From: Crossaster papposus
Lineage: Eukaryota; Echinodermata; Asteroidea; Velatida; Solasteridae
Direction of reading: 5' to 3'
Length of the DNA stretch: 64,000 nt
NCBI GenBank assembly: GCA_037893245.1
Contig: JBAIAA010000648.1
Location: 496,001-560,000 of the forward strand
The notes beneath the pieces were generated by a model. It saw nothing but the letters and a program-made list of their open reading frames with translations. It did no database searches and had not been told where the DNA came from. Position numbers and translations under genes: made by a program. Below are positions 7,557 to 59,183 of this stretch, in pieces. How positions within the stretch are numbered: position 1 is the stretch's first letter; the number at the start of each line of letters is the position of its first letter.

Positions 7557-10184
7557 TGTGAAATTGTAACATTAGCCTGGCCTATTTAACTATTTAAAAA
7601 ACACCAGATGAGCATACTGATGAAAATGAATATTCACTTCTAAAACATTCCTAGTGGTACTACTGCAACATTTTTAAAGCATTTAGTAATGCAGATGTTG
7701 ATTTTCTTATATTTGTTTACCTTTGGGTAATTAACTACTGTCAAGTATCTGAACACATCGTCAGCATTTATTGCCACCACAGCACTCCGCTGGACAATTA
7801 GTACTATCATTTCAAAATGCCTCATTGCTGGACAATTTGGGGATCGTAGTCGAGCTCAAGTTAACACAACAATGCTAAAGCCGTGATGATTATCACTATG
7901 CCAACCTGTGCCAAACTGATGTCTGAAAACGCCATTATCACAGATGAGTTACACAAGATTATGATACAAAAGGGCAGGAAACAAAAGAACAAAAATAAAT
8001 TGACTTGACACTGACAGCTGCACTGCACTGATCGGACTCTTTTCACAATGCCCTTTTCAAAAGGTAATATCTTTTATATAATTCACAAATGGTACTTTAG
8101 ATTTACAAAATACGTTTATAGTTATAAATGGGTGATATGGCTTAGGTTCTAGCCCCACTAGTGTGCCCTACATACAGCACAACGAGTATATAGGGCACAT
8201 TAGTGGGGGTTCATGCAATGAAATACATGTAATTGTAAAATACTGAGATATTTGCCTCCAAATACCGGTACCATGAAAAAGAAATTGACTAGGCCGGCCT
8301 ACCTCGAAAATGACACATAAACAATGTTGATAAGCGCGAGTCTTAGACATTTAACCTTCTAAAAAAGGGGGCAATAGTTTAAACTAGTTTCAACTTCTTT
8401 TAGTATTTTTTTGCAAAAGTGACTGGGTGCCATCATTTAACTCCTTTTCTGGGATCGGACATTACTTGCTGAGCATCTGCATAAACACAATTAATTGAAG
8501 AGATTTTTTTTTTTTCGCAATGGAAATGCAAAATTTACACTAGGTACACACTGGTTAATTGTACAGAGCACTGAATTAACAATTTCTTTTACAAGAACGA
8601 CTTGTTTTAATAGCCGGTATATTCCCACTAAAGACTTTGGTGTTTGCCTTGATAAAGTCTGTACATGTTTTTGAAAGGCTGAATAATTTGTCTTCATTTC
8701 CATGACAAATCCCAAAGTGTCCTCACACACACTGAATATGACATGGGGTGTTAAATTTACCCACAATGCAATTGTATATACAAAATGGAGGCTGCATGAT
8801 GTTGCATACATGCACACCAGTAAGCTTACATCATAAATGTTGAAAGGAGGCAGAAGCCCATGCACGCTAGGCCTAGGCATTTGGTCATAATGAATTCCAT
8901 AGATGATGCTGCTTTATGCTCAAATGTTTATAAATGGAGAAAAAGTACCAGATACAGAGCAGAGACTCGCACAAAAGGTACAGACAACATGGAACCCTAA
9001 TTACTCCCAGTGCCACATTTCGACCGAGGACATTGCCAAATAAATATAGTCACTTGGCAACCACTGAGGATAAAATTGAAGCGTATTGGAGGGCCAAATT
9101 TTCAGCTTCCAGAAATGGTAGTGGCATGATGGAATGCGTGTGTTATTAAAGAAATGCTGCATCGTAAGGGAGTTTTGGCTAGCCACAATGTCGTTCAATG
9201 TGTATCAGACAGTGGAGTACAAGCTACAAAGCCTAATGAATCTACAACAGTGAATGTAGCTTCCAGGTTTACTGAAATGAACAGACAGATGCACTACCAC
9301 AGAACAGCCCTCATAGTACTTTTAATTTGGGTTTTAACAATGACTGTATATTGTTTGATTATGGCATTCAAGTGAAATGCATCGAACACTTCATTATTTA
9401 CAAGCTAATTCATGACTCTAATTCTATAAGAAGCAGAGAAGAAAACTGATTTTGCTCTTTTCTGCAATAACCCAAAATGGCGTATATTTAAAAATGAGAA
9501 TCTCCTCAAATGCTGGAGTGTTCCCCCACCCCCTACCTTGCTCTGCCACACCCCTTATTTTTTTCATGCCCTGCGGTGGGAATGTTGACAATTCAGTGTG
9601 CCCCCAGGAAACTGCACATGCTTTAACTCATCAGGTGGATATTTGTCACCTAAATTTTTCCCCCAGGGGTGGGGACTTTTTTTAAGTGACAATTCCCACC
9701 AAGAGGCATAGGCTGGAGGGGAAGGGGGGGGGGTGGAACTACCAATTGATATGTGCATAATATTTATAAAATAGGACGTGTAATTTCAGAAATCTGGGAC
9801 TTATTCGTAATCAATAAAAAAATGTTTTCAAACTCCGACTTTTGGGGACCGAATCTATCATAAGCAGGGTCAGAACTTGTATTTTGTGCTTTCGGCTTGC
9901 GCACACTTTGACTTGGGAACAAGAAGTCACTTCTTGTGTACTAATTATTTTTTAATTATTACTCAGGTTCTTTTTAAGGCACTTTTTAAAGGTTGGTGAT
10001 CACTTCTCATTTTATTGTGTTATGTTTAAATCGGGTCTGCTGCCAAAACTACTCTAACATTCTGAACTCGCTTTTTGGAATATCAAGTTGAAACACCACA
10101 CACTATGCATGTCATTGGCACCTGGCATGCAAACAAAATAAGTCTGTCCGGCAAAGCAGACGTGTGTCGGCCTAAAGTGTAAAT
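7557..10184. other. Gene-free AT-rich interval
   Basis: No convincing coding region, RNA gene or long repeat was seen between the DIRS element and the large transposon. Short ORFs here have no recognisable motif. There is a poly-G run at 9724-9733 and a weak inverted similarity around GGTGGGAA (9576-9583) and TTCCCACC near 9692. The left target duplication of the large transposon (AAAT, 10181-10184) closes the interval. Confidence 0.6.
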
Positions 10185-10211
10185 GGGTAGTTCCATTTAT
10201 TTGGGGGCCAA
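10185..10211 (+). repeat. Left terminal inverted repeat of the large transposon
   Basis: 27 bp beginning GGGTAGTTCCATTTATT and ending GGGGGCCAA, preceded directly by the AAAT duplication. The partner is at 21440-21466. Confidence 0.88.
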
Positions 10212-10369
10212 CCTGTGACATATGTACCCAAAATTCAAAATGATTATATTTGTATAAATATTTGTTTTTATTTGAATAAAACTTATAAATTTTTAGAAAT
10301 TTTTAAAAATTTTCCAATCAAAGGACATTTTCCCACACAGGAGCAGATCAACTAGACATGCGCCGGTTA

Positions 10370-10395
10370 GGTTCACCGTGTAAACGGGGACACCA
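10370..10395 (+). promoter_or_regulatory. Subterminal motif, left end (candidate transposase-binding site)
   Basis: The core CCGTGTAAACGGGGACACC lies 185 bp inside the left end. Variants of the same motif recur at 13465-13489, inverted at about 13496-13520, and at 13662-13687 and 13840-13865. They also recur at the right end of the element. Its function as a binding site is inferred only from position and reiteration. Confidence 0.55.
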
Positions 10396-10506
10396 AATTG
10401 TTAAAGTCATTATGAAATTTATGTTACAAATGATTGAAATCAGTTGGAATTTTTACTGTTGTAATACTCAATTTTAATCACTTTTGTATGGTGTACTATT
10501 AAGGTC

Positions 10507-11152
10507 ACTAAAACGGCGCGGTGTGTCTTGGCTAGCGGCGCGATGTGTCGTGGCTAGCGGCGCGGTGTGTCGTGGCTAGCGGCGCGATGTGTCTTGGCTA
10601 GCGGCGCGATGTGTCGTGGCTAGCGGCGCGGTGTGTCGTGGCTAGCGGCGCGATGTGTCTTGGCTAGCGGCGCGGTGTGTCGTGGCTAGCGGCGCGGTGT
10701 GTCGTGGCTAGCGGCGCGGTGTGTCTTGGCTAGCGGCGTGATGTGTCTTGGCTAGCGGCGTGATGTGTCTTGGCTAGCGGCGCGGTGTGTCGTGGCTAGC
10801 GGCGCGGTGTGTCGTGGCTAGCGGCGCGGTGTGTCTTGGCTAGCGGCGTGATGTGTCTTGGCTAGCGGCGTGATGTGTCTTGGCTATAGCGGCGCGGTGT
10901 GTCGTGGCTAGCGGCGCGGTGTGTCGTGGCTAGCGGCGCGGTGTGTCTTGGCTAGCGGCGTGATGTGTCTTGGCTAGCGGCGTGATGTGTCTTGGCTAGC
11001 GGCGCGGTGTGTCGTGGCTAGCGGCGCGGTGTGTCGTGGCTAGCGGCGCGGTGTGTCGTGGCTAGCGGCGCGATGTGTCTTGGCTAGCGGCGCGCGATGT
11101 GTCTTGGCTAGCAGCGCGGTGTGTCTTGTCTAGCGGCGCGTTGTTTAGCGGC
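10507..11152 (+). repeat. 22-bp minisatellite, left arm of the foldback element (about 29 units)
   Basis: The unit contains GTGTGTCGTGGCTAGC followed by GGCGCG. Variants are CTTGG for CGTGG and GCGTGATG for GCGCGGTG, mostly CpG-type transitions. From about 10672 to 11000 a five-unit (110-bp) pattern repeats three times, a small higher-order structure. Confidence 0.95.
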
Positions 11153-12839
11153 GCGAGTGGATGATGAAGGGGGAACTTTTGGTATCGAGGGGCTTGCCCT
11201 TAAAATTGTGACGTCATGTCGACCTCGAGAATAAATATGTAGTGTTTTAGCCGTAGGAATATTTAAAGTGAGGTGGCCTTTCTTTAATTCAACTATACCC
11301 GTACCCCCCAAAAGCTGTTGTTTAATACATTTCCCTTTGTATGTCTTTCCTCTGCTCTACTGTGTTACCCAGTATGATCCAGTGGTAGGATCCAAAATGT
11401 TCGCGCTTTGGGGGGAATAATTACAAGAGGTCGCTTTTTTTGTGTGGACGCGTACGTTGCAGTAAACTTTGAAACCTGCCTACCGAAAAATGTCTACTAG
11501 ATTAGTATAGCTGTATGTGCAAACACTAGTGATACAAATATGGAATAGTAGTTAAAATTAGTGCGGTTGTTGAGAAATCAATTATACAAAGAGAAAAACC
11601 CACAAAAAAAAGAATGTATAAATGTATAGCCTAGGCTAGGGCCTAGCCCTATAGCCCTATACGTATACCACATTATTGCGTTAATACATTACATATTATG
11701 TATACATTTTTTTTTGTTCTGTGGTGTTTCCACATTTTCTCGTGTAATTAATATTAGAACATGCATGTGCATTTAAACATGCATGTTCTAATGTCCTTTT
11801 CTTCATGAGATAACGGTGGTAAAATACAAGAATGAATGAATGAAAACAATTCACACATCATGCCTTTAAGTTCAATGAAGGCTTCATGAATCCTGTTCAT
11901 GCTTCTATTGGTTGTCCTTGGAAACTTAATTATGTAGGGCGTACGTCATGTAGGCCAAGTCTACCATTTCTTTTATATTTAAAATGTTTGTGGTATACTT
12001 TGCATCCATCTCTGATTTGATGAGCAGGTATTTTCTTAAGAAAATTATAAATTGATGTTTTATTGGTTCACTTCCACCATGGATTTATGCATACAATTCA
12101 TGGCATATTTGTCATCCAATCCAATGATGCATTGAGAATGTCGATAATGTCGGTTTATTCTGGTGAATCTGTCCAGGTAACGCTAGGTATAAGGCCTTCT
12201 TCCCTAAAGCTGTTTGGGAATTTCGAACGCTGACTATAATAGTCGACAATCTAGTTCCTCGACCTGGCAGTAGGCCTATCCAATGTCAGGATATGTGGCT
12301 CAGTCTTGCAACCGTATTCAACCCAGTGGTTCTGCGTCCCTTCCTTGAAATGATATTTCAATAACATTTGAAACGTAATCGGTATCGTTACCGCAGTCAA
12401 CATTGTGGTTCCCTGACCTGAAAATAATCATCAGGATCTTTGGCTCGTGGAGCAAGACTATCAACCGACGGTCTGGTTGCACTGAACCAGATGGGAACCA
12501 CATTGGAACCACATGGTCGACTGCCGTAACAATACCCTCTCTGAAATTCAACAAGGATAAATAAAAGAAATAAAACCTAAAAAAAGCGCTAACATTTTGG
12601 ATCCTACCACTGGCTCAGATGGGTACTGGGTAACACAGTAGAGCAGAGGAAAGGCATAAAAAGGGCAATGTATTTAACAACGGGTATAGTTAAATTAAAG
12701 AAAAGTCCCTTCACTTTGAATATTCCTACGGCCAAAACACTACATATTTATTCTCGAGTTCGACATGACGTCACAATTTTAAGGGCAAGCCCCTCGATAC
12801 CAAAAGTTTCCCCTCCATCATCCACTCGTGCCGCTACAC

Positions 12840-13180
12840 ACCGCGCCGCTAGACACTAGACACACCGCGCCGCTAGCCACGACACACCGCGCCGCTAGCC
12901 ACGACACACCGCGCCGCTAGCCAAGACACATCACGCCGCTAGCCACGACACACCGCGCCGCTAGCCAAGACACATCACGCCGCTAGCCACGACACATCGC
13001 GCCGCTAGCCACGACACATCACGCCGCTAGCCACGACACACCGCGCCGCTAGCCAAGACACATCGCGCCGCTAGCCACGACACACCGCGCCGCTAGCCAC
13101 GACACACCGCGCCGCTAGCCACGACACACCGCGCCGCTAGCCAAGACACACCGCGCCGCTAGCCACGACACACCGCGCCG
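12840..13180 (-). repeat. 22-bp minisatellite, right arm of the foldback element (about 15 units)
   Basis: The same 22-bp unit in inverse orientation (CCGCTAGCCACGACACAC). It is about half as long as the left array, so the two arms have expanded or shrunk independently. Confidence 0.95.
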
Positions 13181-13439
13181 TTTTAGTGACCTTAATAGTA
13201 CACCATACTTTTGACATGTACCAACATTTGGTTGTGGTTAGTTTGAGGAAAATTTTAATGGAGGCATGTTACCTTTTTACAATTTCGGCCAGAAAAGGTA
13301 ATTTCTGACTATTCTAGATAAGAACAAGTTTTCAGGTCCAATAATTAATCATACTTAAGAAAAATCTGATTATAACTTGTGGCATATGTAGTATAGAATT
13401 ATTTTTTACTAACATCAAATGAGTACATATAAGGTTTAT

Positions 13440-13880
13440 GCTCACAACCGACCCCAAAGTTAAAGTTCCCCGTGTAAATGGGACACCAACAATATTGGTG
13501 TCCCTTTACACGGGGAACCCGAAGTACAGGGGTGTGTTTTAGACTTAAAATTATCTATTTTGAATAAGATGACCACAATTAACTAACTAGCATAACTCTT
13601 TGCAACATAATTAATACTACTTACTACACATTTTGACTTTTGCTCCAGAAACATGGACAGAGGTTCCCCGTGTAAAGGAGACACCAACTTCTAAATGTGG
13701 AGTCAAGAGTAAGATGGGTGTTTTAGACTGGGACATTATTAATTTCAAATAAGATAAGGACATTTAAACCATTAGCATGACTGATTGCAACAACAAAACA
13801 AAATCATATAACTTATAACAATACTAGAACCTGCAAAAAGGTTCTCCGTGTAAGGGGGACACCAAAAGTATAATTGTGTA
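13440..13880 (+). repeat. Diverged ~180-200-bp tandem units carrying the subterminal motif
   Basis: Three units start with GGTTCCCCGTGTAAA-like sequence at about 13464, 13662 and 13840. The first two also share GTGTTTTAGACT and AATAAGAT further on. The first unit includes a near-perfect hairpin: the motif at 13465-13489 faces its inverse at 13496-13520 across a 5-7-base loop. Confidence 0.65.
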
Positions 13881-14528
13881 TTAAGATCAAAATTTGATTT
13901 TTTTTTTTTTTTAAGGTCAAAAGAGACTTTGCCTTGTGGAATGGAACATTCCATCTGTCACCTAATGAAATTATTCTTAACATCGCACCCACAAACATTC
14001 ATTATTTGTATACTATGTACATGACACTCAAAACCTCTGCACATTATGATTTGCATGACTGTTACAGCACTTCCATGGGATACTTACACATAGTGACTTT
14101 TAACAGTTTGTGTATTTTCTTACTTAACAATTAATTTCTATTTGAACTAACATAATTACTACAACATTGTACTAATTATTGTCCTATCTAACTTTAGACC
14201 AGAAGTTTGTGTCTCCCAGCCGATGAAAGCCGTTGCTTTTCTGTGAATACCCTTATTTAGTATCAACTCACAGAAGGTCCCGGACACAAATGGGATCATA
14301 ACCCGAGTTACAGGGATCGAAAGACGCACAGTGATAAACGTTTGAGCCCAGTTCACAACCCCCCCCCCCCCAAAAAAAAAAAAATAATAATAATCAATAA
14401 ACTTTTAACTTTATACCCATTAAAACAAAAAATGGAAAATAGTTATCTGAAGTAGACAAATTTTGCATCAAAAACCAAAAATGTTCCATCACAATTTGTC
14501 CTGGGGATTTATAGTTCCTTGTTTCTGC

Positions 14529-17500
14529 TTATTTTAGTTCGATATCAGGTGGTAGGATATTTAGGTCCTTGTCGTCAAATTTGTACAGGTAAGCTCTTTG
14601 AAATTGCACAATTGAAGGTTCTGCCATTGTTTGTATGATGTCTTTCATAGGAAGGGTAGCCTGACGCTCAGCCTTGAAATCGTAGAATCCCATCTGATTT
14701 CTTCGCATGAATTTCAATCGCGCAGTACTTGCTTGCACGTCTGTAACCTGAATAAAGAGAAACGTGACACTAACAGTTCAATTCAGTCTAGGTTTTAACT
14801 TTTACAAACACATTTATTAGTCTATAATATTTATAACATTCTGGGACAATAGTAGTCCCCTCCCAGTTTAAAATACAACCCGCTATTGCCCAATCCACGC
14901 AACAAAATCTTACCATTGCCATGTAGACCAATGCTGTGCTATTCTTGTTAACTTCCGGAAACTTCACAGTCACAAAGTCATTGACTTTGATCCTGTACAA
15001 ATTAAAGTATGAGAAATAAATTAAGTGGAAAACAGCATGCAAATATATCGTAAACAATGACTGCTATACAGATTAAATTCAATGGATTCTATATCAAATT
15101 GTCATTCTTCTCATACTAGAATACTAACTTCTTTGGTTGTGGTTGAACCTTTCTTGTGTTGTTTGCACTAGAACCAGGGTCTAGGGGGTAGGCAGTGTCA
15201 TCATGGTCTGCTACATCAGGATCAGAGACGAGTCGATGTGTAGTGTTATCATGGCTGAAGGTGTCGATGCTGGCTTCATCAAGACCAGGGACAGGGTAGT
15301 GGGCACTGTCAACTGAATCAGGTTCAGGGGCAAGAAGGGGAGTGTTGACATCTTGGCTGGTTTCATGGTTCATGTTGACGCGAATTGAAAATGTAAAAAT
15401 AAAATATTGTTATTTCACTGTACACATTTCTAGGTCAAAGTGTTTAAAAAAAATAAAAATAAACAGTGATAACAAGGGTTTTAAAAATTAGGAATTGTAG
15501 GGAAACTTTACTTGTTTTTGGTTTTCCTTTCTTGTTCTTGATAGTGCATTTCTTCTTTTTGGTTTTCAGCAGGGCAATCTCTTCCCAGTAATGCACATAC
15601 ACCCCATTACTGCATTCACCAACACCTCGTAGGCAGCCATCACAAAAGCAGGAGAGATTCCGGACAGCCACTACACCTCCCTTGACATTTTTGATACTGT
15701 GCAGTTTCCTCGTCCCTTTCACACTCCGTAGTACTCTGTCTGCTCGGTTTCTTTTAACATCCTCAAATGGAATGAAGAAGACAGAACGCCGGAAGGCTGC
15801 GCAGCAGCTGCCATCTTGGGCCTCCTTCACCATATTTTTGGAGAGATACTCAAAAAGAGCCTTGGCATTATTTATTATTGCATTTCCTGCCTTAATGGCG
15901 TCCGATGCATGTCTCTTCACTACGCCACTTTCACCATCACTCGGCCCCTTACCATGTCTGGTACCCGAGTAATTATGGCACAGGGTGAAGCCGAAGTCTT
16001 CTAGGGCGTAGCTGATGTCTGATATTGGACCCTTACTCTTGTACTGGCAGCTGCATCCATCGCTGAACCGGTAGAAAGTGCTCAGTGGTATACCTCTTGT
16101 TTGCGTCAAATGTTGAGTCAAAACCTGCTGAAATGTGTTCACCAAGTTGAAGTCGTGTGTCAAATCGTTACTGATCATCACGCAACTTTCGGTTACGGGA
16201 CTGTGACAGTTGTTGCATCTGTAGTATGTGACTATTGGGTGCACCGTCGCCGAATCATGTGCATAGTATGCACTCTGTACCTCACGCTGGTAACTGCATT
16301 TAAAGTTCTCTGCAAAGTCAAACACCCCTAAAGCTTCATCATCATGCAGCTTTCCTCTCAGCTCACTCTCTTGTCTATGCTGCCAGTCCTTATTGAACAG
16401 GTGCTCAGCATGTGGATGAATTTCTACCTTCAGTTCATCAATCAGTTCCTTTACAGTGCCTGATTTCAGTTCAAGGGACCTTTTCTTCACTTCTTTGGTA
16501 CCTTTTTTAGTGTGGCAAATGGAGTTAACCATATCCCACTTCTTCCACTGAACTTTGCAGGCGAGACTTGCCAAGTGACCGAGCGAATCCTCAAGCCCTT
16601 CAACACCACATTCGGTGCATGTTCTTGTGATGCATTCTGGATTGTTGTATTCTTCTGTCTTTGGGCACATGGTTAGATTAACCAAGTTGTATTGATCCTT
16701 CAATGTTGCTGACTTGATCTGATTGATTGCGTGTATCTTAAGTTGAATATTTTCACAATATTCACATAGGCAACCGATGTACTTCGCCTGTTGTTTGTAT
16801 TTCACATGCTTTGGGCGTAGCCGATAGAACACCGAAGCACACACAGGCTTGTCTGGATTTGCCTTGATGTACTGTTTGTGCAAATTTGCAATGGTGACAT
16901 CCATGACATGTGCAGGTTTTAGAGTTTTTTTACTAACAAGTTTCTTGTCGGGCAACTGGTTTGAATTAACTTCATAGAATTCACGGATGGCTTCAACTGT
17001 TTTAGATGGAATAGGTTTTCTGCCAGCTTTCAGTTTCCTTGCCTTCTGCAGTAACTTGCGACTGATGATGCCAGACCTCCTGCAGAATTCCCTTTGAAGC
17101 TTGTACCTTTTGATTTCACTCAGTGTGCTGGCCAGGATTTTTCTTGAAACTGACTTTCTTGGTGCTTGAAGTCCGATTGCTACAGCCTCCATAACTCCTT
17201 CCTCCAATTTGGATTTGGAGCTAATCCCAGCTTTCTTAAAAGCTGCAGCTTTGGTTGGGGTTGCCTTATTTATTAGATCTATCGAAGTGTTAATACATTT
17301 AGATCTTGTCTTTGGCAGGGCTTTTCTCGCACGCTCAAGTGCCTTGTTTCTAGCTTCATGCGTTCGGAAATCCAATGCATCTTCATTCTGAAGAATGTTG
17401 TTTCTGTACTGTAGCTCATTATTCTTGTCTTGTAGCTCATTAGTCTTGTCTTGTAGCTCATTAGTCTTGTCTTGTAGTTGTTCCTTCTGAGCTTTTAACT

Positions 17501-18080
17501 GTTCTTCCATTTCCTTCAATCGTTCTTCACCTTCCTTTATCTTTCGGTTCTGTTCTTCCAAAATCATCATCTGCACCCTTTTGGACTTAAGAGCATACAA
17601 CTCTCTTCTTCGAGCCAATGTAGATTCTTTTCTTTTCTTTGAGTATCCTGCTCGCTGTGCTCGTTTCTTTGCTGCTGCTTTACTCTTGGCTTTCTCATGC
17701 TGTTGTCTTGTCTGTGTTTTCTTTAATCTTGCATCCTTGCCTGCAGCTTTCTTCCTTTTATTCATCTTTTCCATCCTGATCCTGGCCGTCTCGTTGTTTC
17801 GTTTTTTCCTCTGAAGCCACATCTCAGCTTCTTCCCGTTCGTGAGCAGAGAGATTTCTTTTCGTGAGAGATTCTTCTGCTAATGAACATTGAACTCGGTA
17901 GTATTTGCTGTATAACTTTGAATGTTCACGAATTGTTTTAATTTTTTCTGGATTTGTTTGTGCCATTCTGTCTTTCCAAGTTTGAGTTTTTGATTTGCGG
18001 TTTTTTGGCTTGGTAGGAATAGAGCTTGTGGAGGCAGCTTCAGTTCTGAATCGAACACGAAGTTCATAGGGCGGTGGCAT
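14529..18080 (-). CDS. Putative transposase of the large transposon (Sola-like?), four exons, predicted 1029 aa
   Basis: Exon 1 is 18080-15512 (donor GTAAAG), exon 2 about 15351-15129 (donor GTTAGT; its acceptor is the least certain), exon 3 14992-14914 (acceptor TTTGTACAG, donor GTAAGA) and exon 4 14747-14529 (acceptor TTATTCAG, TAA stop). All phases agree. Residues 1-170 are very Lys/Arg-rich; 170-235 look like a coiled coil with LQDKTNELQ heptads. Cys pairs follow at CLCEYCEN (about 437) and CTECG (about 488). The likely catalytic core has Asp in VFDFAENFKC (588), ISNDLTHD (637), RFSDGCSCQYKS (674) and HGKGPSDGES (709-718). Similar blocks occur in transposase-like proteins scattered through animals. 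A T-rich tract plus AAAG just before the ATG suggests a 5' UTR exon. DDE-type catalysis is inferred, not proven. Confidence 0.8.
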
Positions 18081-18643
18081 CTTTAAAAAAAAAAAAAAAA
18101 AGATGAGACGGGTGAAAAGGCTGGATGGAATAAATCAAGCAAATAATAATATACATATAAGCAATTATTAAATAAAAATATCTAAATCTTTGCACAATTA
18201 ATTAATAACAATTAATAACAATTAATTTTTTAATAAATCATTATGAAGGAAAAGAAAAGAAAAAATGACCTAAACAGTGATAAATAGCTCGTCCAAAAAG
18301 TAACTAAGTATTTAAGTTCAAAGAAAAAAATGTTTTCCAGTCTAGGTTGGTTTCCATTTATATTGGTGCGCTTTAGGGGTGAACAATATAAAACTGAACA
18401 GCAACATCAAATAATCGTTGGCAAACAAAAATTCTTTAGCTTATACAGACAAATATTAAACCCTCCAATAGTTGTACAATTATAGAAATAACTGGAAACA
18501 AACATTTACAAATGCGAACAGAAAGTTGTAAAAGCAACAACCCGCCAAGGTTACCCCTTTGTAATAATGGAATATCCCACAAAGGTAACACATGTACATT
18601 AGCCTCTGTCATGACCTTTCTAAAAGGTCAACGCAAGGAAAAT

Positions 18644-18660
18644 TGTCAAAATGGCGGCGC
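18644..18660 (+). promoter_or_regulatory. YY1-type initiator-like motif AAAATGGCGGCG
   Basis: AAAATGGCGGCGC fits the AANATGGCGGC consensus found at many animal promoters. It lies about 570 bp upstream of the transposase ATG, on the opposite strand. A similar AAAATGGCGGGAG is at 20731-20743. They could mark the transposase promoter or a divergent transcript; evidence is motif only. Confidence 0.35.
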
Positions 18661-18875
18661 TTACCAACAGCAACACGTGTGTCGTCGATGTCAGAACTTT
18701 ATGGCTTACGACGGAGCTCTAAAGGCTGTGGTTATTTCGAAAGGATAAATCGTAGGCATAAGGCTAAATGTCATCCAAAACCGTAAAATTACGAAAGAGA
18801 AAGAAACAGCGACTGAAAAAATGGTCAGTTTGTGAAAGCGTGCTGCGCTATATACGTACGTGCGTAGCTAGCAGA

Positions 18876-18955
18876 TGTCAGACAAGTCGACCGTTGAGAC
18901 AACTCGCCCGTTGAGACAACTCGCCCGTTGAGACAACTCGACCTTTGGGAGAGCT
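18876..18955 (+). repeat. Short array related to the ACAACTCG minisatellite
   Basis: About four 17-bp units of GACAACTCGCCCGTTGA. The GACAACTCG core is shared with the larger arrays at 46-49 kb and 55.7 kb. Single related units also occur near 19872 and 20028. Confidence 0.7.
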
Positions 18956-20678
18956 ATAGCTGTACTTCGACGTTTACATTGTTTATAAACAGTTAATGTT
19001 GGGCCGACTTTCCTCATGCAATGTTGCCATACTTCTTTGTTGACAAACTGCAAATTCATTGTACCTTTACCATGTTAATGTTATTAATGCTTGCTATTTA
19101 TCCTCTGTTAACAATTTAGGTGTAAGCTTAGTCCGAAAAAAACACCAAAACGGTGGCGTCCAGAAATTGTGCACACAATCGACCGAGTGCTCCCTAATTG
19201 GTCGTGGCGCAATTGAATAATTCTTGAAAAATTCAAGTTTAATATTTACGAAGTTCTTTTAATGTCAGGTTTCAGTCAATAAAAGGGTAAAATATTACTA
19301 GATTTCACAGGCGTCTGTACATTTAATGTGACAGTATTTAAAACTGGTTTTTAAATTAACATTGCAGGATTGTTGAGGTTTAACGTCCATATAGTAATTA
19401 TGTGAACCAAGTGCTTGTGTGTAAAGCCCCAAATTTATATTTGATGTCAAAAAATAATTAAAAATACAAAAATAATATTGCTTGTACATGTATCAAGTTG
19501 TATGAATTGGCCCCAGAATTTGTTTACTGTTTGGCATTCAAATATGGCTTTCAAATAAAGCTTCAGTTCAGTGCCACTGAATTTTTTGTTTTGTTTAAAT
19601 GTTAATTGGGCCTAACCGGTTTTCTAAGGAGCATAAATATACGGCGGGTCTTTTCAAGTGCAGGAAAGAAAATCTAGTTTTATGATTGGCCATTTTTTAT
19701 TAAGTATTTCCCCGCAATTCACTAACTATCTGTTGTCTTTCCTCCATGGTATAGCTACTTACGTTAGTTTTACGCGCGAGCTCGGAAGCCATATTGACAA
19801 ATTTCCTCAAAACGCCCTCTTCGGTTGATTTTCGTCATTTCATGACAGAGGCTAATGTACTCCCCAACGCTAACGGTGGGACAACTCGACCGCTAGACAA
19901 CTTGTGCACAGTGCGCCGCGGCACGTACCGTGCCCGAGAACGGTGCGGTCGACCGGTCATTAATGCAACGTGCCTGCAATGCAACACCCGCTACGGTGTA
20001 CGTGTACATGCACGGATACACAAAACGGTCGAGTTGTCTAACATTGGGTAATTCATGGATTGTGTCCTGTTTACGCGGCGAACAATTTTCAGCTGTATTT
20101 GGAAATATGAAAGTTATTCTCTCAGTAATGGGCTTGTTCTTATGTTAAAACCAACCCCAAATAATTGCCGGTGTATTATTACAGTATATTCACGAGTTGA
20201 AAGGCAAGTGACAATTAAATAAATGGTTAAAATTGACTCGGTCATCACAACGAAAACGCGACACGAAATACTCAAGTGTCCCTGCTAATAGTTTACGTGG
20301 AGTGGATACACGCACAAAACTGTAACAAAACTACGACTAAATTGTCAATTACTGTACACAAATCACTTCAATTGTTATACAACTGTTCTGTATCCCTCTA
20401 CCGTGTCAACTTACAGATTATAACACGATCAGAATTCGTTTGGTCAGCTAAAAAATCGCAACGTAAAAACGGACCCGAAAATAGCGGTGTCTCATCAGAC
20501 CGCAAAACACCCATAGAGCTGGCTGATCGAGTACAGCTACGTTCGTGTTTTATTTTGTAATTTTTTAACAGTTCTAGACCATCGATATCTACAAAAATAC
20601 GATGAGATTGTTACAAAATGTTCCAGCTTACCTTCAATTCCTTGATGAAAGTCCACCCGCCACGTAAATTGCAAAACT

Positions 20679-21275
20679 ACGTAAAAGGGAGGACACCAAA
20701 GTATTTTCGTTCCGATTTTGTCAACTAGAAAATGGCGGGAGACGTGAGGGCACTCAATGCCAAGACGTACGTGTGGGGCATTGAATCAGGGGTTCTGTTT
20801 ATTGCTACATTTTCTAGGTCAGGTATGACGCAAGGGCAAATGTTCGCTACGTAAAAAAAAACGGGGACACTACTTCTTCAATTTCCTACTTGTTTTATCA
20901 TTTTGTGAACAATTAAAGCTAGCTGCTGCTGTTTTTTATTGAAATGTAAGTTATTGATGCATATTGATAACAAGAAAACAGGGATTTGCCGATTGTCAGC
21001 CTTGTCTTTATTTTACACGCCTTCAAAAATACAATTTTCAGCGTAAACAAGGGGACACGAAAATTTACGTTTTTTTGTTTTTGTTAAACACAAACTGAAC
21101 AAATACGATTGACAACAGGGAAATAAAAACTCACAGGAACTGATGTTAGTTGTTAATGTTGTGTTTAATGGTACAATCATTAAAATCTAACAGTTAACCA
21201 AAACTATACAGTACTGAAAAGACAGGGACATGTTCATGTCACAACAAAACCCTCAAAATGTCGGGGACACGAAGA
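20679..21275 (+). promoter_or_regulatory. Right subterminal motif cluster of the large transposon
   Basis: Four spaced variants of GTAAANNGGGGACAC occur: ACGTAAAAGGGAGGACACC (20679), ACGGGGACAC (about 20864), GCGTAAACAAGGGGACAC (21042) and TCGGGGACACG (21259). A possible inverted one is AAGTGTCCCTGC...TTTACGTGG near 20273-20299. They match the motif reiterated at the left end and lie within 800 bp of the right terminus. Confidence 0.5.
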
Positions 21276-21439
21276 ATAAAATCGGGGATTACCACCAAAT
21301 CATCTGATTTTTTTTTTCTGTGTGTGAATGGTGGAATACCCTAATATATATGCCTAATAACAATGTTAATATGAAAAACAAATATCTGTGGCTTAGAGCA
21401 CAATGCATACAATCAAGTCGAATACCCTTTTAAAAACAC

Positions 21440-21466
21440 TTGGCCCCCTAATAAATGGAACTACCC
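21440..21466 (-). repeat. Right terminal inverted repeat of the large transposon
   Basis: Reads TTGGCCCCC and then AATAAATGGAACTACCC at the outer end. It is the inverted match of 10185-10211 with one mismatch (A for T at the 18th position) and is followed by AAAT at 21467-21470. Confidence 0.88.
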
Positions 21467-21751
21467 AAATACGAACTGCTCACAATGTCGACATTGTCAG
21501 CAAATAATTCTGGCTATTGTAACTCGCATATATACAAGTCCAGCATTAATATGTACTGTATATTCTGCAGTGTAACCAAAAGTGCATGTATGGCTCATTG
21601 TGACGCAGCCTTGTTTGGAATTCCTTGATACTTTGTTGGGGTGGGGTTGGGAGGGTGGACGGTCAGGCTGGAAAATCATATGGATTGTATGCTGGTGACA
21701 GTGCCGACAATTGTGAGTGACCCTTATATTTAAGAAAGTTTATATTGAAAG

Positions 21752-22428
21752 TGTTCCAGTTACTTACCACTGCTCTGACCTTTAACATGCTGAAACAAAT
21801 TGATGTCCAGCCACACGGTTGTATGGAAGCAGCATGATAATGGTTTATGCACCATAAATTTACATGTTAGCAGTGTTGTAGTCGAGTACTTTTCGAGTAC
21901 AAATTTACTGCAAAATATTGAACAGGTGAGGTGTGAACAAAGTTGGAAAACATGGACATTAGATGGTATGCACAAAGGTAAGATTATGTAATGATGGCCT
22001 CAAACTATCACAGCTGAGTAAAAAATTATACTGTAGGACAACAGTACACGGCCGAGTACATTTTGAGTACTCTTCTGCTAAAAACTTTTTTTTGTTCTAA
22101 CTGAGAATCTGAAGTATGCAAATTATGTTGTAATCTTACCTATGTGTATCTACCGTCTAATGTCCATGTCTGCCAGCTTTGTTCACACCTCAACTGGTCA
22201 ATATTTAGCAGTAAAATTGGTATTCGAAAAGAACCAGACTACAATACAGCATGTTAGGAAACATATAAAATGTTGACGTAGTTAGAAAGTGTTCCAGTTA
22301 CTGGTTTATGCACCATAAATTGTTAGGAAACATTCTTATTACATTTTGAAGTATTTGGAAAGTGTTCCAGTTATTTAACAGTACTCAGACCTGTAACATG
22401 CTGAACAAATTGATGTCTGGTTACATGA
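21752..22428. repeat. Direct and inverted duplication cluster
   Basis: About 65 bp beginning GTGTTCCAGTTA recurs at 21752 and 22364, both followed by AACATGCTGA and AAATTGATGTC. Between them, 21895-21985 and 22130-22235 are inverted copies of each other. Each contains an exon-like block bounded by an AG and GTAAGATTA, reading RCEQSWKTWTLDG in one copy and RCEQSWQTWTLDG in the other. Confidence 0.65.
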
Positions 22429-24532
22429 GTGCTCTACCATGTCTTCAGTATTCAGTTCATATTAAATTAGTTTGTTGACAAATGAAGGTTGATAACTTGT
22501 TACTTAACCACATTGACAATTAATCTGGCAAAAATAAACCACTGCAGCATTTAATGTGTAAAATTCACATGATGTCATGGGTGCTGGTAATGGGTGTGGA
22601 AGATAAACTGTTACAAAATGTATACCATGCCAGCTTGCTTTGTTGGATCTCTAATATTTCATTAAAACATTTCCTTCATCTTGCTGTCATTTTCCATAGC
22701 TTAACGCGTTAAACAACAAATGATCTGCAAACACGTGACTTCATGATTGTTGTGATGATAGCTGTGGTGATAGCTGTGCTGACATCTCAAAACATTGTTT
22801 GTAATTACAGTGAATTTAGCAGGTTTTTTTGTTTTTTGTTTTCTTTTGTTTGTTTTGTTTTGCTTTGCATATCGCTTGACTTATTTTAATCAACCTCATT
22901 TTATGTTATTTGTATGTGGCAGTAATGCAGCTTATTCATTCATGTGGCATCTGAAAATCTAACATCTTGTTTACTGTTGCTTTGCATAAATGGAAGAAAT
23001 GTTCAGTGTCCTATCAGCATATTTCTTTTTTTGTAGGAGGGTGAAGTGAATACAAGGTGGTCCTGACCCCCTCTCCATCTCACTGTAACCACGGCGATAT
23101 ATAAACCTCCACTAAAGCAAGCTAGTCCTAATTAGTACTATATTTTGTAAATTGTAACAGTTTTGGTTCAGGTCGGGCACTTGCTTCAAATATCAATTTT
23201 TGAAATGGAGAACTCATGTAGATGTAACGTTATAGCTGTGTTAACTTGTTCATAATTGATACTTGCACAACTGTAGAGTGGATTATTTCTGAAGTGAGTT
23301 GAACGTGACAGTTACTGTGCTAAACAAGAACAGTATCATTACACAAATTTAAAAAGAGTCAACTTTATAAATGTTCAATGATCTCCCTTTGTAATTGTCC
23401 CTATGGTCTAAATTTGTATCTTGCATTTTACCTTGCAACTGAATCCAGTTTCCATTTTTTTTGCAAACTGGACAACTTCAGTGAATTTTACACATGAGTC
23501 CTTTGGATTATTATTAATGTTGCAACTTTTAAGGTGCCGTATAAATATTGTAAATAAACCGATCAAAATGAGTAAATATTTCTAGTGTGTCTCTTTTTCT
23601 GCTGTCTGCCTGTTGTACATGTATTTGAAGACTTAACCTTACCTAGTGAAGCCTTTGAAGAAACTATTTGCAAGTAACACAGCATTTTCGTTTCATTACG
23701 GTTTATTACACATGGATCAAACAGCAAGTCAAAAAATCAACAATGTCTGATATACAATTTGAAAATAGATTTATACAAAAAACAATTTTTGGACAACATA
23801 AACAAACTAGATTAAAAGCAATTATTACAAATTACAATATAAATGACAAACATACATGTACATGTTTAGGAGTGATTCATGAATGGTAAGATGACTGTTT
23901 TTATACCTCTTGGAGGGAAATCAAGCAGATGAGATTGTCCGAGATTATGACCAGACGGTTTGGCGAGTTGATGGCAAAGATGACAGTGTTTCAGATTCCA
24001 ATAAATAAGACAACCGAATCGAACAATTAATTGGTTACGTCTAACAGCTTATGCAGTAATGCTTTATTCTTTGGACAGTGTTAATTTGAAAATGTATTCT
24101 TGCTTGCATATTGACAATTGTAAGCCTATATTATTCCCGACAAGCAAGTAAATAAGTCACCAGCTAGAACAATAAGGGTATTACACTCGGATACACGCAA
24201 TAAAGGACAGAGGAGAAAGGATTTTGTTTTTGCTATTTGCTGCAGCTTGCAAATTTATTAATATTCCCTAATGGGTATCCGTGCCCTTACGAGGGTCAAT
24301 CGGCAACCGACCGCAAATAAGAAAAGTTAACAGGGGTCCGGCTTGACCACTGCACCTGGTAATTATCAATCTATCCAATCCATTATAAACCAATTTCATA
24401 CAAGCACGTGATGACAGATAGGCCACAGCTTGTGGCCTCGACCGTGAACGAATAGGCAGCTTGCCCCAGTTGCAATCGACTTATGGGCTGATCAGACCCC
24501 CATGGCAGCTTGCCAAAAGTCGATTACAGTGA

Positions 24533-46300: not shown

Positions 46301-46714
46301 TTTGAAATTGTGGTTCACGGGTACATGGCTTTGATCAATTAAAAAGGCAGATACTCTGGGGCATCCAAGGTCAATCTGCACGATTGTTGGCATTATTAAC
46401 CTGTTTGGCATTATTAACCATTATTAAGCCTTGTAAACATTTTCGTATACAATTTTAATTCCATTAAATGTAACGATGTACAAGTTACATGAGATTCAGT
46501 TTGTACAGTCTCATTTATTTCGGTTTTTAAGAATAAGCTTAACTTAGACTTTTCTTTTTACAAAGGCATTCGTGTAAGATTTTACTATTTATTTATATAC
46601 ATCTTGGTTTTAATTTCGCAAACATCGTTTGACATAACTTTTTTCAATAATAGATCTTTTTAGACTAATGTTTTCATTTGATTAGTATTTTTAAGATAAC
46701 AAAAAAGTATTTGG

Positions 46715-47666
46715 TCTCGCGTACGACGTACGAGTTGGTCTCGCGTACGAGTTGGTCTCGCGTACGAGTTGGTCTCGCGTACGAGTTGGTCTCGCGTACG
46801 AGTTGGTCTCGCGTACGAGTTGGTCTCGCGTACGAGTTGGTCTCGCGTACGAGTTGGTCTCGCGTACGAGTTGGTCTCGCGTACGAGTTGGTCTCGCGTA
46901 CGAGTTGGTCTCGCGTACGAGTTGGTCTCGCGTACGAGTTGGTCTCGCGTACGAGTTGGTCTCGCGTACGAGTTGGTCTCGCGTACGAGTTGGTCTCGCG
47001 TACGAGTTGGTCTCGCGTACGAGTTGGTCTCGCGTACGAGTTGGTCTCGCGTACGAGTTGGTCTCGCGTACGAGTTGGTCTCGCGTACGAGTTGGTCTCG
47101 CGTACGAGTTGGTCTCGCGTACGAGTTGGTCTCGCGTACGAGTTGGTCTCGCGTACGAGTTGGTCTCGCGTACGAGTTGGTCTCGCGTACGAGTTGGTCT
47201 CGCGTACGAGTTGGTCTCGCGTACGAGTTGGTCTCGCGTACGAGTTGGTCTCGCGTACGAGTTGGTCTCGCGTACGAGTTGGTCTCGCGTACGAGTTGGT
47301 CTCGCGTACGAGTTGGTCTCGCGTACGAGTTGGTCTCGCGTACGAGTTGGTCTCGCGTACGAGTTGGTCTCGCGTACGAGTTGGTCTCGCGTACGAGTTG
47401 GTCTCGCGTACGAGTTGGTCTCGCGTACGAGTTGGTCTCGCGTACGAGTTGGTCTCGCGTACGAGTTGGTCTCGCGTACGAGTTGGTCTCGCGTACGAGT
47501 TGGTCTCGCGTACGAGTTGGTCTCGCGTACGAGTTGGTCTCGCGTACGAGTTGGTCTCGCGTACGAGTTGGTCTCGCGTACGAGTTGGTCTCGCGTACGA
47601 GTTGGTCTCGCGTACGAGTTGGTCTCGCGTACGAGTTGGTCTCGCGTACGAGTTGGTCTCGCGTAC
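46715..47666 (+). repeat. 17-bp satellite GAGTTGGTCTCGCGTAC, 55 units
   Basis: 46732-47666 is exactly 55 consecutive 17-bp units with no variant seen by eye. Since 17 is not a multiple of 3 and the unit lacks stops, all frames stay open for about 350 codons on both strands. Those ORFs are not treated as genes. The complement, GACCAACTCGTACGCGA, differs from the 48.5-kb monomer by one inserted C and one C/G change. Confidence 0.97.
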
Positions 47667-47839
47667 GAGTTTACCTGTATTCCCAGTTAGTGGGTCTAGT
47701 AGTACCAGTACTTTATACAAAAACTAATTACCACCATCATGAACAATCATCAATAATGGACCAAATTAGGAAATATCTATTCTTATTTTTAGTTACCTAT
47801 TTAAATTTAAAAGTAAACAATGATATTCTAATTAATTTC

Positions 47840-48492
47840 TAGGCATCCAGCAAAATGATTGCGCTAGATATCCTGTAATTGTTCCGAAAAATGTTATAAA
47901 GAATTTACAATGTCAATGGCCAGACGGCGATCGCGTAAAAAACCAATAACGAACAGTCCGAACGCTTTCGAACAGGGCCCAATTTCACGGCGCTGCTAAG
48001 CACACGATTTTCTGCTAACCGAGCCTCCGTCTATTTCACGGAGACCGTAAGCAGTAAGCACAGCAAAAGGCACGCTTAACTTAGCGGGAAAATTTGCTTA
48101 AATCAGTGACGTAACAATAGAATCTCCATGCGCGCGCCAACGTTAGCACAAAAAAGCCGTGAAATAGCGCTTAAGGTTAGCAAATTTTTCTGCTTAAGTA
48201 AGCACAACTTTTCCGCTAACTGTTAAGCAGCGCCGTGAAATTGGGCCCAGAACAACCCATCAAGTCATGACAACCGCCGACGCCGGTTGAATCATGCCAT
48301 GGTTATGTGGAGGAATCAATCATGGTTGAATACATCAAAGTCAAACCGACATACATGACATACGCCGTTTTTCGTCTTTTTTTCTTGGCATCTAAAACCT
48401 CGGACAGGTTAAACGATATTTACTAAAATGCAACCCCCAAACTAAATCCACCCAATCCTGACAATTCAAGCAATTGCCATGGTGTATCCTAC
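47840..48492 (-). mobile_element. MITE of the GGTAGGATACACC family, copy 3, carrying another MITE
   Basis: It contains TAGGCATCCAGCAAAATGAT and CGCTAGATATCCTGTAATTG, then GACGCCGGTTGAA, and ends GCCATGGTGTATCCTACC. A GGGCCC-ended MITE is inserted at 47975-48248. The left boundary is approximate. A 16-bp satellite starts 17 bp beyond its right end. Confidence 0.68.
47975..48248. mobile_element. MITE with GGGCCCAATTTCACGGCGC ends
   Basis: The 274-bp element has terminal inverted repeats of about 27 bp (GGGCCCAATTTCACGGCGCT then GCTTAAC). The flanks CGAACA and AGAACA are a possible but imperfect duplication. Such ends are familiar from echinoderm and lancelet MITEs. Confidence 0.85.
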
Positions 48493-48508
48493 CTTATTAT
48501 GAATGTGG

Positions 48509-49170
48509 GACAACTCGTACCCGGGACAACTCGTACCTGAGACGACTCGTACCCGGGAAAACTCGTACCCGGGTCAGCTCGTACCCAAGACAGCTCGTAC
48601 CCGGGACAGCTCGTACCCGGGACAGCTCGTACCCGAGACAGCTCGTACCCGAGACAACTCGTACCCGAGACAACTCGTACCCGAGACAACTCGTACCCGA
48701 GACAACTCGTACCCGAGACAACTCGTTTTTACCCGAGACAACTCGTTTTTACCCGAGACAACTCGTTTTTACCCGAGACAACTCGTACCCGAGACAACTC
48801 GTACCCGAGACAACTCGTACCCGAGACAACTCGTACCCGAGACAACTCGTACCCGAGACAACTCGTACCCGAGACAACTCGTACCCGAGACAACTCGTAC
48901 CCGAGACAACTCGTACCCGAGACAACTCGTACCCGAGACAACTCGTACCCGAGACAACTCGTACCCGAGACAACTCGTACCCGAGACAACTCGTACCCGA
49001 GACAACTCGTACCCGAGACAACTCGTACCCGAGACAACTCGTACCCGAGACAACTCGTACCCGAGACAACTCGTACCCGAGACAACTCGTACCCGAGACA
49101 ACTCGTACCCGAGACAACTCGTACCCGAGACAACTCGTACCCGAGACAACTCGTACCCGAGACAACTCGT
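48509..49170 (+). repeat. 16-bp satellite GACAACTCGTACCCGA, about 41 units
   Basis: The first ten units vary (CCGGG for CCGAG, CAGCTC for CAACTC). Three consecutive units at about 48720-48780 carry an inserted TTTT, and the rest are uniform. The gradient suggests recent expansion from the right side. Long ORFs in several frames are by-products. Confidence 0.96.
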
Positions 49171-49594
49171 GCACGGCTTACGTGCCTTACTTGTGCCGAA
49201 CGTTATCATACTTGTTTTCAACCAATTATTATTATGCTGCCGTTTTAAAAGATAGAAATTGTGAATGGTTTGATTACTAGAGATTTTAGACGATTACGAA
49301 TTAATATTGTTTATTTCCGTTTTACATTTAAAAGAGAGAAGAAGCTTAGGGCTGCTGTAGTTGGCCTGAAGATATTTTTTTTGTAATACCGGGTACTGTT
49401 TTATTTTCATTCCGTTTCAGAAACTCTGATGCAAACTCCGCCCCAGTATAAAACTTTAGTGTCAAAAAAACTGTAGAAGCTTGGTGTCATAATTATGTAA
49501 CATTTCATAATGAATCGGTACCCAGTCGGGAAAACTATGTTTACTACTGAATTATTAAGAGATATCTTACTTATTTGAAAGTAAATAATGATTC

Positions 49595-56257: not shown

Positions 56258-59183
56258 TCAGATGGCATGTCGGAGCTCTGATTTAAATGTGCTTAATGAG
56301 TCCAATGTTCGCAATTGTTCGGGCAGATTATTCCAAATATTTGCACCACTCACAGCGAAACTTGTGGCGTAGCATTCTTTTTTGGCGAAAGGAACTTTCA
56401 GTGCCGTGTGGGTTGATTGCCTTGTTTCGCGAATTACTGTAAGTGGTTTGAAAATATTTGTCATGTACAAAGGAGTCATTTTGTTGATACTTTTGAAGAC
56501 AAGAATAGCCTTTTTTGACTTGACTCTTTTTGAAAAAGGGGTCCAATTAAGACGAGCAAACATATCCTCTGAAGGGGTGAGGAAGGGACATTTAAGGATT
56601 ATCCGCGCGGCTCTTTTGAGACATTTGTTTAACATATTATCGTGAGATACGTACCTTCCTCCCCACACAGTACAACAATACTCTAATGTTGGCATAACTA
56701 GACTTACAAATAGTGTGTGCAAGCTGTGCTGAGGAATACAATCACGAATTCTTCTTAGTATACCTAATTTAGACACCACATTTTTTCTTACGTATTCGAC
56801 ATGTGGGCCCCAACTTAATGCTTCATCAATAATTACACCCAAACATTTATAAGACTTCACATTTTCAATACGACTACCAGCAATGCATACATTTAAATTA
56901 ACATTAGATATTTTCTGCCTAGTACCAATAAGCATGCATTTGGTTTTGGTGGCATTTAAAGCTAGCTTGTTTCTTCCGCACCAGTTGTGAAAACTAGTAA
57001 GAGCTGTATTTAAGCTACTTTCTATTATATTAATGTTGGAGGAGCTACACGTTAATGTTGAGTCATCTGCATACATAAATAAGTTGCAGTTTGGGGCAAT
57101 ACAAAATGGAAGGTCACTAGTATAAACAATGAATAAAAGTGGACCTAGTATCGACCCCTGTGGAACACCAGTGTTTACGGACAGGACCTTTGATATGGTG
57201 CCGCCAATATTCACAGACTGACTACGTTCACTTAGGTACGACTTAAACCAATTTATTACAGAAGATGACATGTTCATCCTTTCTAGTTTCTTTAGTAAGA
57301 TTTCATGATCAACACAATCAAATGCTTTACTGAGGTCTATAAACACACTGCCTGTAACTTGTCCATTCTCCATGGCCGCAAAACACTTGTTTGTCAAGTC
57401 ATGTAGGGTGCTTTCAGTTGAGTGCAGGGGTCTAAATCCCGACTGGCAACTAGGAATCAGATTGTTTTCATCAAGATATCTATATACCGATGAGTGCACC
57501 CATCTTTCTAAAATCTTAGAGATAATTGGCAGTATAGAAATTGGACGATAGTTACCTGTACTACATTTATCTCCTCCCTTGTGAATTGGTGTTACTAAAG
57601 CATGTTTCCAATCTTTATAGGTATCGCTCACATCTTATAGACAGGTTAACAATATGAGTTAAAGATTTAATGATATAAGGTGAAGCAATTTTAATCATTT
57701 TAACACTAATTCCATCCGGACCTGTTGCTTTCCCAACCGACATGGATGATATTTGCTTTCGAACAAACTCTTCTGTAATGTTAGGTACTACGCAATCTTC
57801 ATCAACAGAATCAAATATAGAGGCGTCAGTATTGTCATCTATTTCAAGTTCACGCAAAGGGTAATTTCCAGCAGTACGCTTGCCGATTGTTGAAAAGTGT
57901 TCATTTAATGTATCAGCAATGTCGGCGATATTGTCAATATTTTCCCCATTTGGGAAAGTAATCGAATTTGGTACAGTTTTTTGTTTCTTAGGGAGTACCT
58001 CCTTCAGAGTTTTCCACAGCATAGAAGAGTTGCTTTTATTTTCTTCTATGGCGGATGTGTAGTAATTACTCTTTTTACTGCGGATTTTATTAGTAACATT
58101 GTTCCGCAGGTTTTTGTATGAATCCCAATGAATTTGTAAGCCTGTGTGCTTTGCAATTTTGTGTACACGATCGCGCTGCCGCATAAGTTTAAGAATTTCG
58201 CTATCGAGCCACGGTACTGAGGCACCCCGAATGCGTTTGGTTTTGACTGGCGCATGGAGGTTAATAATACTCATAAATATGGAGTACCATATAGACCATG
58301 CATTATCCACATCATAACAACCAAAAACATCTTGCCATGGTGCATTACGGAGATCGTCCGTAAATGCATCACTGTTTATATTTTTTAGACATCGAAAATT
58401 TATTGAACGACCTTTCATTTTTGGTGTTTTCCAACTGTGTAGCCCATAAACAAGATAATGATCACTGATTAGGACTGGTAAAACACCACAGTCCTTTATG
58501 AGCTCTGGGTGGGAACTAAAAATGAGATCGATGGTAGTTTTAGTAGATTCAGTGACACGTGTTGGGTCATGTATGAGTTGCGCCATTTGGAACAAACTAA
58601 AGCAAGAAATAATTGGATTTGATTGCATACTATCGTATTCCTCTGAAACATCACAATTAAAGTCCCCAGTTGTAATAATTTCTTTACATTCACACGAGGC
58701 CTTATTAAGGATATCACTCAGTTTTCCCATAAATTCGACAGAGCTTGAAGGAGGCCTATAAATAGAACTGATAAGAACAGGCTGTCTTTGTTTACACTTA
58801 ATTTCAACCCATATACATTCGACATCATCTATTTCGAGATCTTCACGACGAGAGAACATTAGGGTATCTCGAATGTAAATTGCAACCCCGCCACCATGTC
58901 GGTTCCTGTCTTTTCTGACAATAGAATAATTTGGTAGAGTTATTTCGTCATCAGAGATTGAGGCGTCGCAAAAAGTTTCGTTTAGACAGATGATGTCGAA
59001 TGGATTTTTAGACATTACAATCTTAAAATGGTCAAATTTGTTTATGAGGCTTCTTACATTAAGATGGGCGAATGAGAAACCCTCTGAACTTTGATTGCAG
59101 ATAATACCATCTGTTATGTCTATTTTATAACCTTGCCTTGTGGGTTGAGCAGCTCCCTGACCATTTTCAGATGTTGGTTCCAC
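56258..59183 (-). pseudogene. LINE ORF2: endonuclease and reverse transcriptase (one frameshift)
   Basis: ATG at 59183, overlapping ORF1 by 64 nt. The AP-type endonuclease shows FAHLNVRSL, CLNETF, GGGVAIYIRD, SSIYRPPSS, TTGDFNCD and LISDHYLVYG, so Asn, Glu, Asp and the SDH box are all present. A linker leads to MSVGKATGPDGI. A one-base shift near 57628 (WKHALVTPIHKGG follows) passes to the RT frame, 57631-56258: FIDLSKAFDCVDHEILL, GVPQGSILGPLLF, YADDSTLT, LNATKTKCMLIG and CLGVIID. The C-terminus with IWNNLPEQLR is typical of CR1/Jockey-group LINEs. No RNase H or zinc knuckle was seen. Total about 975 residues; RT and endonuclease otherwise look intact. Confidence 0.92.

Follow-up and report, generated by a model that had tools for sequence, protein, structure and literature searches.

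A complete-looking and probably autonomous DDD/E-class DNA transposon, likely of Sola2 type, in the genome of the sea star Crossaster papposus

Within a 64-kb stretch of the Crossaster papposus genome (hereafter, the window), two inverted sequences enclose a long open frame (15444-18134, minus strand), which raises the question of whether this frame belongs to a host gene or to a mobile element and, in the latter case, to which kind. The terminal inverted repeats, GGGTAGTTCCATTTATTWGGGGGCCAA, are 27 bp long, occupy positions 10185-10211 on the plus strand and 21440-21466 on the minus strand, and are identical at 26 of their 27 bases. A 25-bp pattern drawn from these ends, with up to 3 mismatches, occurs at these two places only in the 64 kb and was not recovered in any of 100 shuffles. 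Both repeats are bordered on their outer side by AAAT (10181-10184 on the left, 21467-21470 on the right), a target duplication known from this single insertion. The inverted ends and the exact duplication reported in the initial annotation are thereby confirmed. No further copy of the element was found within the window, either by BLASTN or with the end pattern; this pattern has no match in viral contigs, and a search of positions 9000-23000 with Rfam returned nothing at the gathering score.

The 11.28 kb enclosed by these ends do not all belong to the transposon. Its left arm contains a nested element, N1, of 2721 bp (10487-13207), delimited by its own long inverted repeats, which consist of 22-bp tandem arrays of 28.5 and 15.6 copies, and bordered on both sides by CTTTTG (10481-10486 and 13208-13213). 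Because 2.72 kb of the span are nested sequence, the transposon proper measures about 8.55 kb. A possible second nested element, IR2 (18594-19860), is marked by an exact 21-bp inverted repeat at both ends, whose local score of 24 stands against scores that never exceeded 16 over 300 mononucleotide shuffles, and it shows no clear flanking duplication. The two IR2 repeats lie 1.27 kb apart, upstream of the transposase gene, and 17-bp tandem repeats are present between them (18880-18947). Elsewhere in the window, a minus-strand open reading frame at 632-1420, presumably DIRS-like, has a weak tyrosine-recombinase (Phage_integrase) match below the Pfam cut-off. In addition, minus-strand LINE-like frames at 56258-60532, which are assumed here to be CR1-like, encode a reverse transcriptase and an endonuclease and show a weak GDSL-lipase-like match, also below the cut-off, while repeated sequence open in several frames is seen at 46660-47842 and 48462-49280.

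Regarding the gene itself, a four-exon splice model on the minus strand gives a single frame of 1029 amino acids. In this model, exon 1 (15512-18080) encodes a basic helical N-terminus, a Cys-rich region and the DDD RNase H core, and exon 2 (15129-15351), whose 5' junction is weak, an acidic linker; exon 3 (14914-14992) and exon 4 (14529-14747), which rest on homology as well as on the model, would encode the first part of a Tudor-like domain and, respectively, its remainder with the C-terminus and the stop codon. The introns are short (160, 136 and 166 bp), and the second and third have ordinary borders. For intron 1, with the one exon-1 donor that was tried, a single acceptor (15352) out of five listed AG dinucleotides keeps the frame, the others being rejected as each out of frame; since this acceptor has no good pyrimidine tract, the junction is considered weak. 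Protein homology backs exons 3 and 4, whose junction is spanned by alignments with the catshark protein P0068 (55% over 129 aa) and the Diadema setosum protein P0013 (33% over 127 aa). In the predicted structure of P0013, N-terminal helices are seen, and the stretch 777-844, the counterpart of exon 2, has a pLDDT below 50. The proposal of a single gene with consistent exon phases thus holds, with its weak point at intron 1.

The catalytic potential of the encoded protein was addressed by structure prediction and by comparison with RNase H-fold transposases, as suggested in the initial annotation. The core is predicted to adopt an RNase H-like fold (pLDDT 88), its best structural matches being retroviral integrases and Mos1, and it carries three acids in the order b1, b4 and a later helix: D588 at the end of strand b1 (codon 16317-16319), D674 at the end of strand b4 (16059-16061) and D715 at the start of the later helix (15936-15938), all on the minus strand, with codon positions calculated from the exon start. 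The initial annotation had already pointed to D588 and D674, which remain likely, but its candidates for the third acid are replaced by D715: this residue is kept in 228 of 232 aligned proteins whereas a Glu at 717 is found in only 74 of them, and residue 714 is a Ser. In retroviral integrases, Mos1 and IstA, the third acid is Glu or Asp; here it is Asp. Identity between the window protein and the solved structures of these three kinds of protein is 6-12% in the rows shown, and a Foldseek search against the PDB and viral models gave no match at E <=0.001, a result that was given no weight as a sign of absence. Taken together, the predicted structure has the features of a DDE/D transposase of the RNase H fold and presents the protein as a putative DDD transposase with D588, D674 and D715 in the canonical catalytic places.

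Relatives of this protein bear on the choice between a mobile and a host gene. Three protein searches at E <=0.001 gave 72, 78 and 1075 matching proteins, the second and third scoring only the roughly 8000 candidates that share most words and the third listing 120 of its matches, and 233 distinct proteins were collected. Most family records are unnamed; the named echinoderm hosts include Asterias, Diadema, Holothuria, Apostichopus, Lytechinus, Anneissia and Amphiura, and the other named hosts are bivalves, gastropods, the nemertean Lineus, the hagfish Myxine, the catshark Scyliorhinus and insects. Several relatives per species are often found. In a tree of 58 proteins, P0001 is the partner of the window protein (100/99). 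Three proteins of Holothuria leucospilota are scattered over three positions; Asterias groups with Diadema antillarum, and the two copies from Diadema setosum are placed in other parts of the tree. Divergent lineages in one species and a topology that departs from that of the species form the pattern of a mobile gene. Peptide-pattern searches matched 26 and 3 stretches in viral contigs and 18 in prokaryotic genomes, none confirmed as relatives, and a literature search with core peptide strings returned 0 papers.

A domesticated transposase, that is, a host gene between fortuitous repeats, would account for the introns and the open frame. It would also find a parallel in P0068, annotated as VPS9 domain-containing protein 1 isoform X1, which contains the N- and C-terminal parts of the family but lacks the catalytic core, as though splicing had brought a transposase copy into a host gene. 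Such an origin is nevertheless highly improbable for the present locus, in view of the 26/27 ends and the AAAT on both sides of the gene and of the several divergent lineages in one species and the tree that departs from the species tree, even though that tree does place both copies of Lytechinus pictus side by side. The locus is very probably a complete-looking cut-and-paste DNA transposon of the DDD/E class, carried by an animal genome; it is probably autonomous, as deduced from the open gene and the presence of both ends.

As to the kind of transposon, excerpts of two publications provide the terms of comparison. Sola2 elements are described with 4-bp AWWT target duplications, AAAT included, one described transposase having 888 aa (PMC3627910), while Sola elements in general are reported to have a DDD transposase, inverted ends of 11-1124 bp and a size of 2-9 kb, some exceeding 15 kb (PMC10741241). 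The AWWT-like duplication that had been put forward as a Sola trait is thus printed for Sola2, and the single insertion in the window is flanked by AAAT on both sides. Besides, the element encodes the D588/D674/D715 triad, has 27-bp ends and measures 8.55 kb (11.28 kb with N1), so that the 11.3-kb length first regarded as unusual was inflated by the nested element and the transposon itself lies within the sizes printed for Sola. In terms of likeness, the excerpts therefore share with the element an AWWT duplication, a DDD triad, inverted ends, a kilobase size and a transposase near 900 aa; in terms of difference, they mention neither a Tudor-like domain nor a phased subterminal array (PMC3627910, PMC10741241).

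Other superfamilies agree less well with the element, as far as excerpts of their descriptions go. The C/DxxH motif printed for hAT, P, MuDR, Kolobok and Dada between the second and third catalytic acids (PMC9587614) is absent from residues 674-715 of the window protein, in which a DxxH at residues 639-642 precedes the second acid; C/DxxH occurs in 15 of 224 relatives and is therefore not a signature of the family. In the same line, Kolobok and piggyBac duplicate TTAA (PMC9587614) and the duplication here is AAAT, while Ginger combines inverted ends of 40-270 bp with a Gypsy-type integrase (PMC10741241) and the present element has 27-bp ends and no Pfam integrase at E <=1. A transposon of the same kind could still belong to another, perhaps undescribed, DDD/E superfamily sharing an AWWT-like duplication. 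In that sense, the window protein has no Pfam family at E <=1, no Pfam family is matched by more than two of 48 relatives among the 25 of 28 families listed, and the 1075 proteins matching the profile of distant members form a very large family without a tied name. However, AWWT together with DDD are printed features of Sola2 and Sola, and one described Sola2 transposase has a length of 888 aa, which makes a separate superfamily not very probable. A Sola2-type placement is considered likely, and the element is called Sola2-like rather than a Sola2 member because the comparison covers described features. The new lineage put forward in the initial annotation is at most a possibility, the protein family being large and widespread.

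Beyond the terminal repeats, the element carries a reiterated subterminal motif. When both strands were scored, the eight best sites of the whole window all lay inside the element, as did the next three, the template being drawn from those same eight sites and weak sites being enriched only slightly. The eight best are on the plus strand: L1 at 10368-10400 (anchor GACAC at 10389), L2 at 13461-13493 (anchor 13482), L3 at 13659-13691 (13680) and L4 at 13837-13869 (13858) in the left arm, and R4 at 20671-20703 (20692), R3 at 20845-20877 (20866), R2 at 21033-21065 (21054) and R1 at 21245-21277 (21266) in the right arm. L2 forms half of a palindrome of 54 bases (13465-13518, z -8.3) made of two head-to-head motifs with one unpaired base and a 5-base loop, and a related GTTCC...GGGG.CCAA block stands within the inverted ends themselves. 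A plain motif pattern with 3 mismatches was found 7 times in the whole window against 6.1 expected, not above chance; the signal is in the close matches.

Measured from the end block, whose position was set by eye, and with N1 omitted, the motifs lie at 183, 552, 750 and 928 bp on the left and at 180, 392, 580 and 754 bp on the right. The eight sites are coherent at 188 bp (R 0.94) and in phase with both ends, the left arm lacking the second site of the series. This coherence was reached by 0 of 20000 random sets, by 3 of 20000 when a spacing above 100 bp was imposed and by 35 of 20000 when each arm was given its own phase; R falls to 0.78 when three weaker right-arm sites are added. The reiteration noticed near both ends at the outset is therefore present and more regular than had been claimed. 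The chances appear even that a subterminal unit was duplicated in tandem and that the spacing of about 190 bp is only a trace of this, with no chromatin meaning. In favour of such an origin, the pairs L2-L3 and L3-L4 resemble each other outside the motif as diverged duplicates (z 6.9). Against it, the next best among 156 unit comparisons reach z 4.0 and 3.0, and most units show no recognisable likeness, yet the motif has been retained in phase with both ends. Repeated short sites within the two ends, with transposase binding shown or proposed there, are described for the hAT element Hermes in an excerpt of PMC10368747, where each end carries five asymmetrically placed AAG(T/C) sites within its first 55 bp; in contrast, the present element has longer sites that follow one another inwards from the ends at intervals of about 188 bp.

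The C-terminal domain, modelled on a homologue and tied to exons 3-4 of the window by homology, is predicted to be a small beta-barrel resembling the solved Tudor domains of PHF1 and PHF19 (PDB 6wav, 5xfq, 4bd3). The likeness to these domains lies in the predicted fold, whereas the sequence match is not significant: comparison with Tudor and Royal-family domains, looking for a significant sequence match or a methyl-lysine cage, gave some matches of the right kind, none of them significant. The aromatic residues are, by eye, partly kept in the window copy. Hence, on the basis of the model, a Tudor-like fold seems to be present in the transposase.

These features suggest how the element might move. 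The 1029-aa transposase would most likely dimerise through its long basic N-terminal helices, bind the motif within and near the ends, cut by means of the D588/D674/D715 triad and join the element to short A-T targets cut 4 bp apart on the two strands (AAAT at this locus, AWWT in Sola2). Less surely, the Tudor-like domain might contact histones, and the nucleosome-length spacing might place successive sites at the same position on successive nucleosomes, end pairing or target choice being thereby tied to chromatin. That the element as a whole is coupled to chromatin in this way, with Tudor-like histone reading and end sites at nucleosome spacing serving pairing or targeting on nucleosomal DNA, is regarded as rather unlikely.

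A large family of unnamed animal proteins is now linked to a defined mobile element, of which the two ends and the target duplication are in hand, and the family thereby becomes assayable. Some retrotransposons possess chromodomain-bearing integrases, a comparable idea; should the Tudor-like domain and the end array of nucleosome-length spacing prove functional, the present element would combine cut-and-paste transposition with a chromatin reader of its own.
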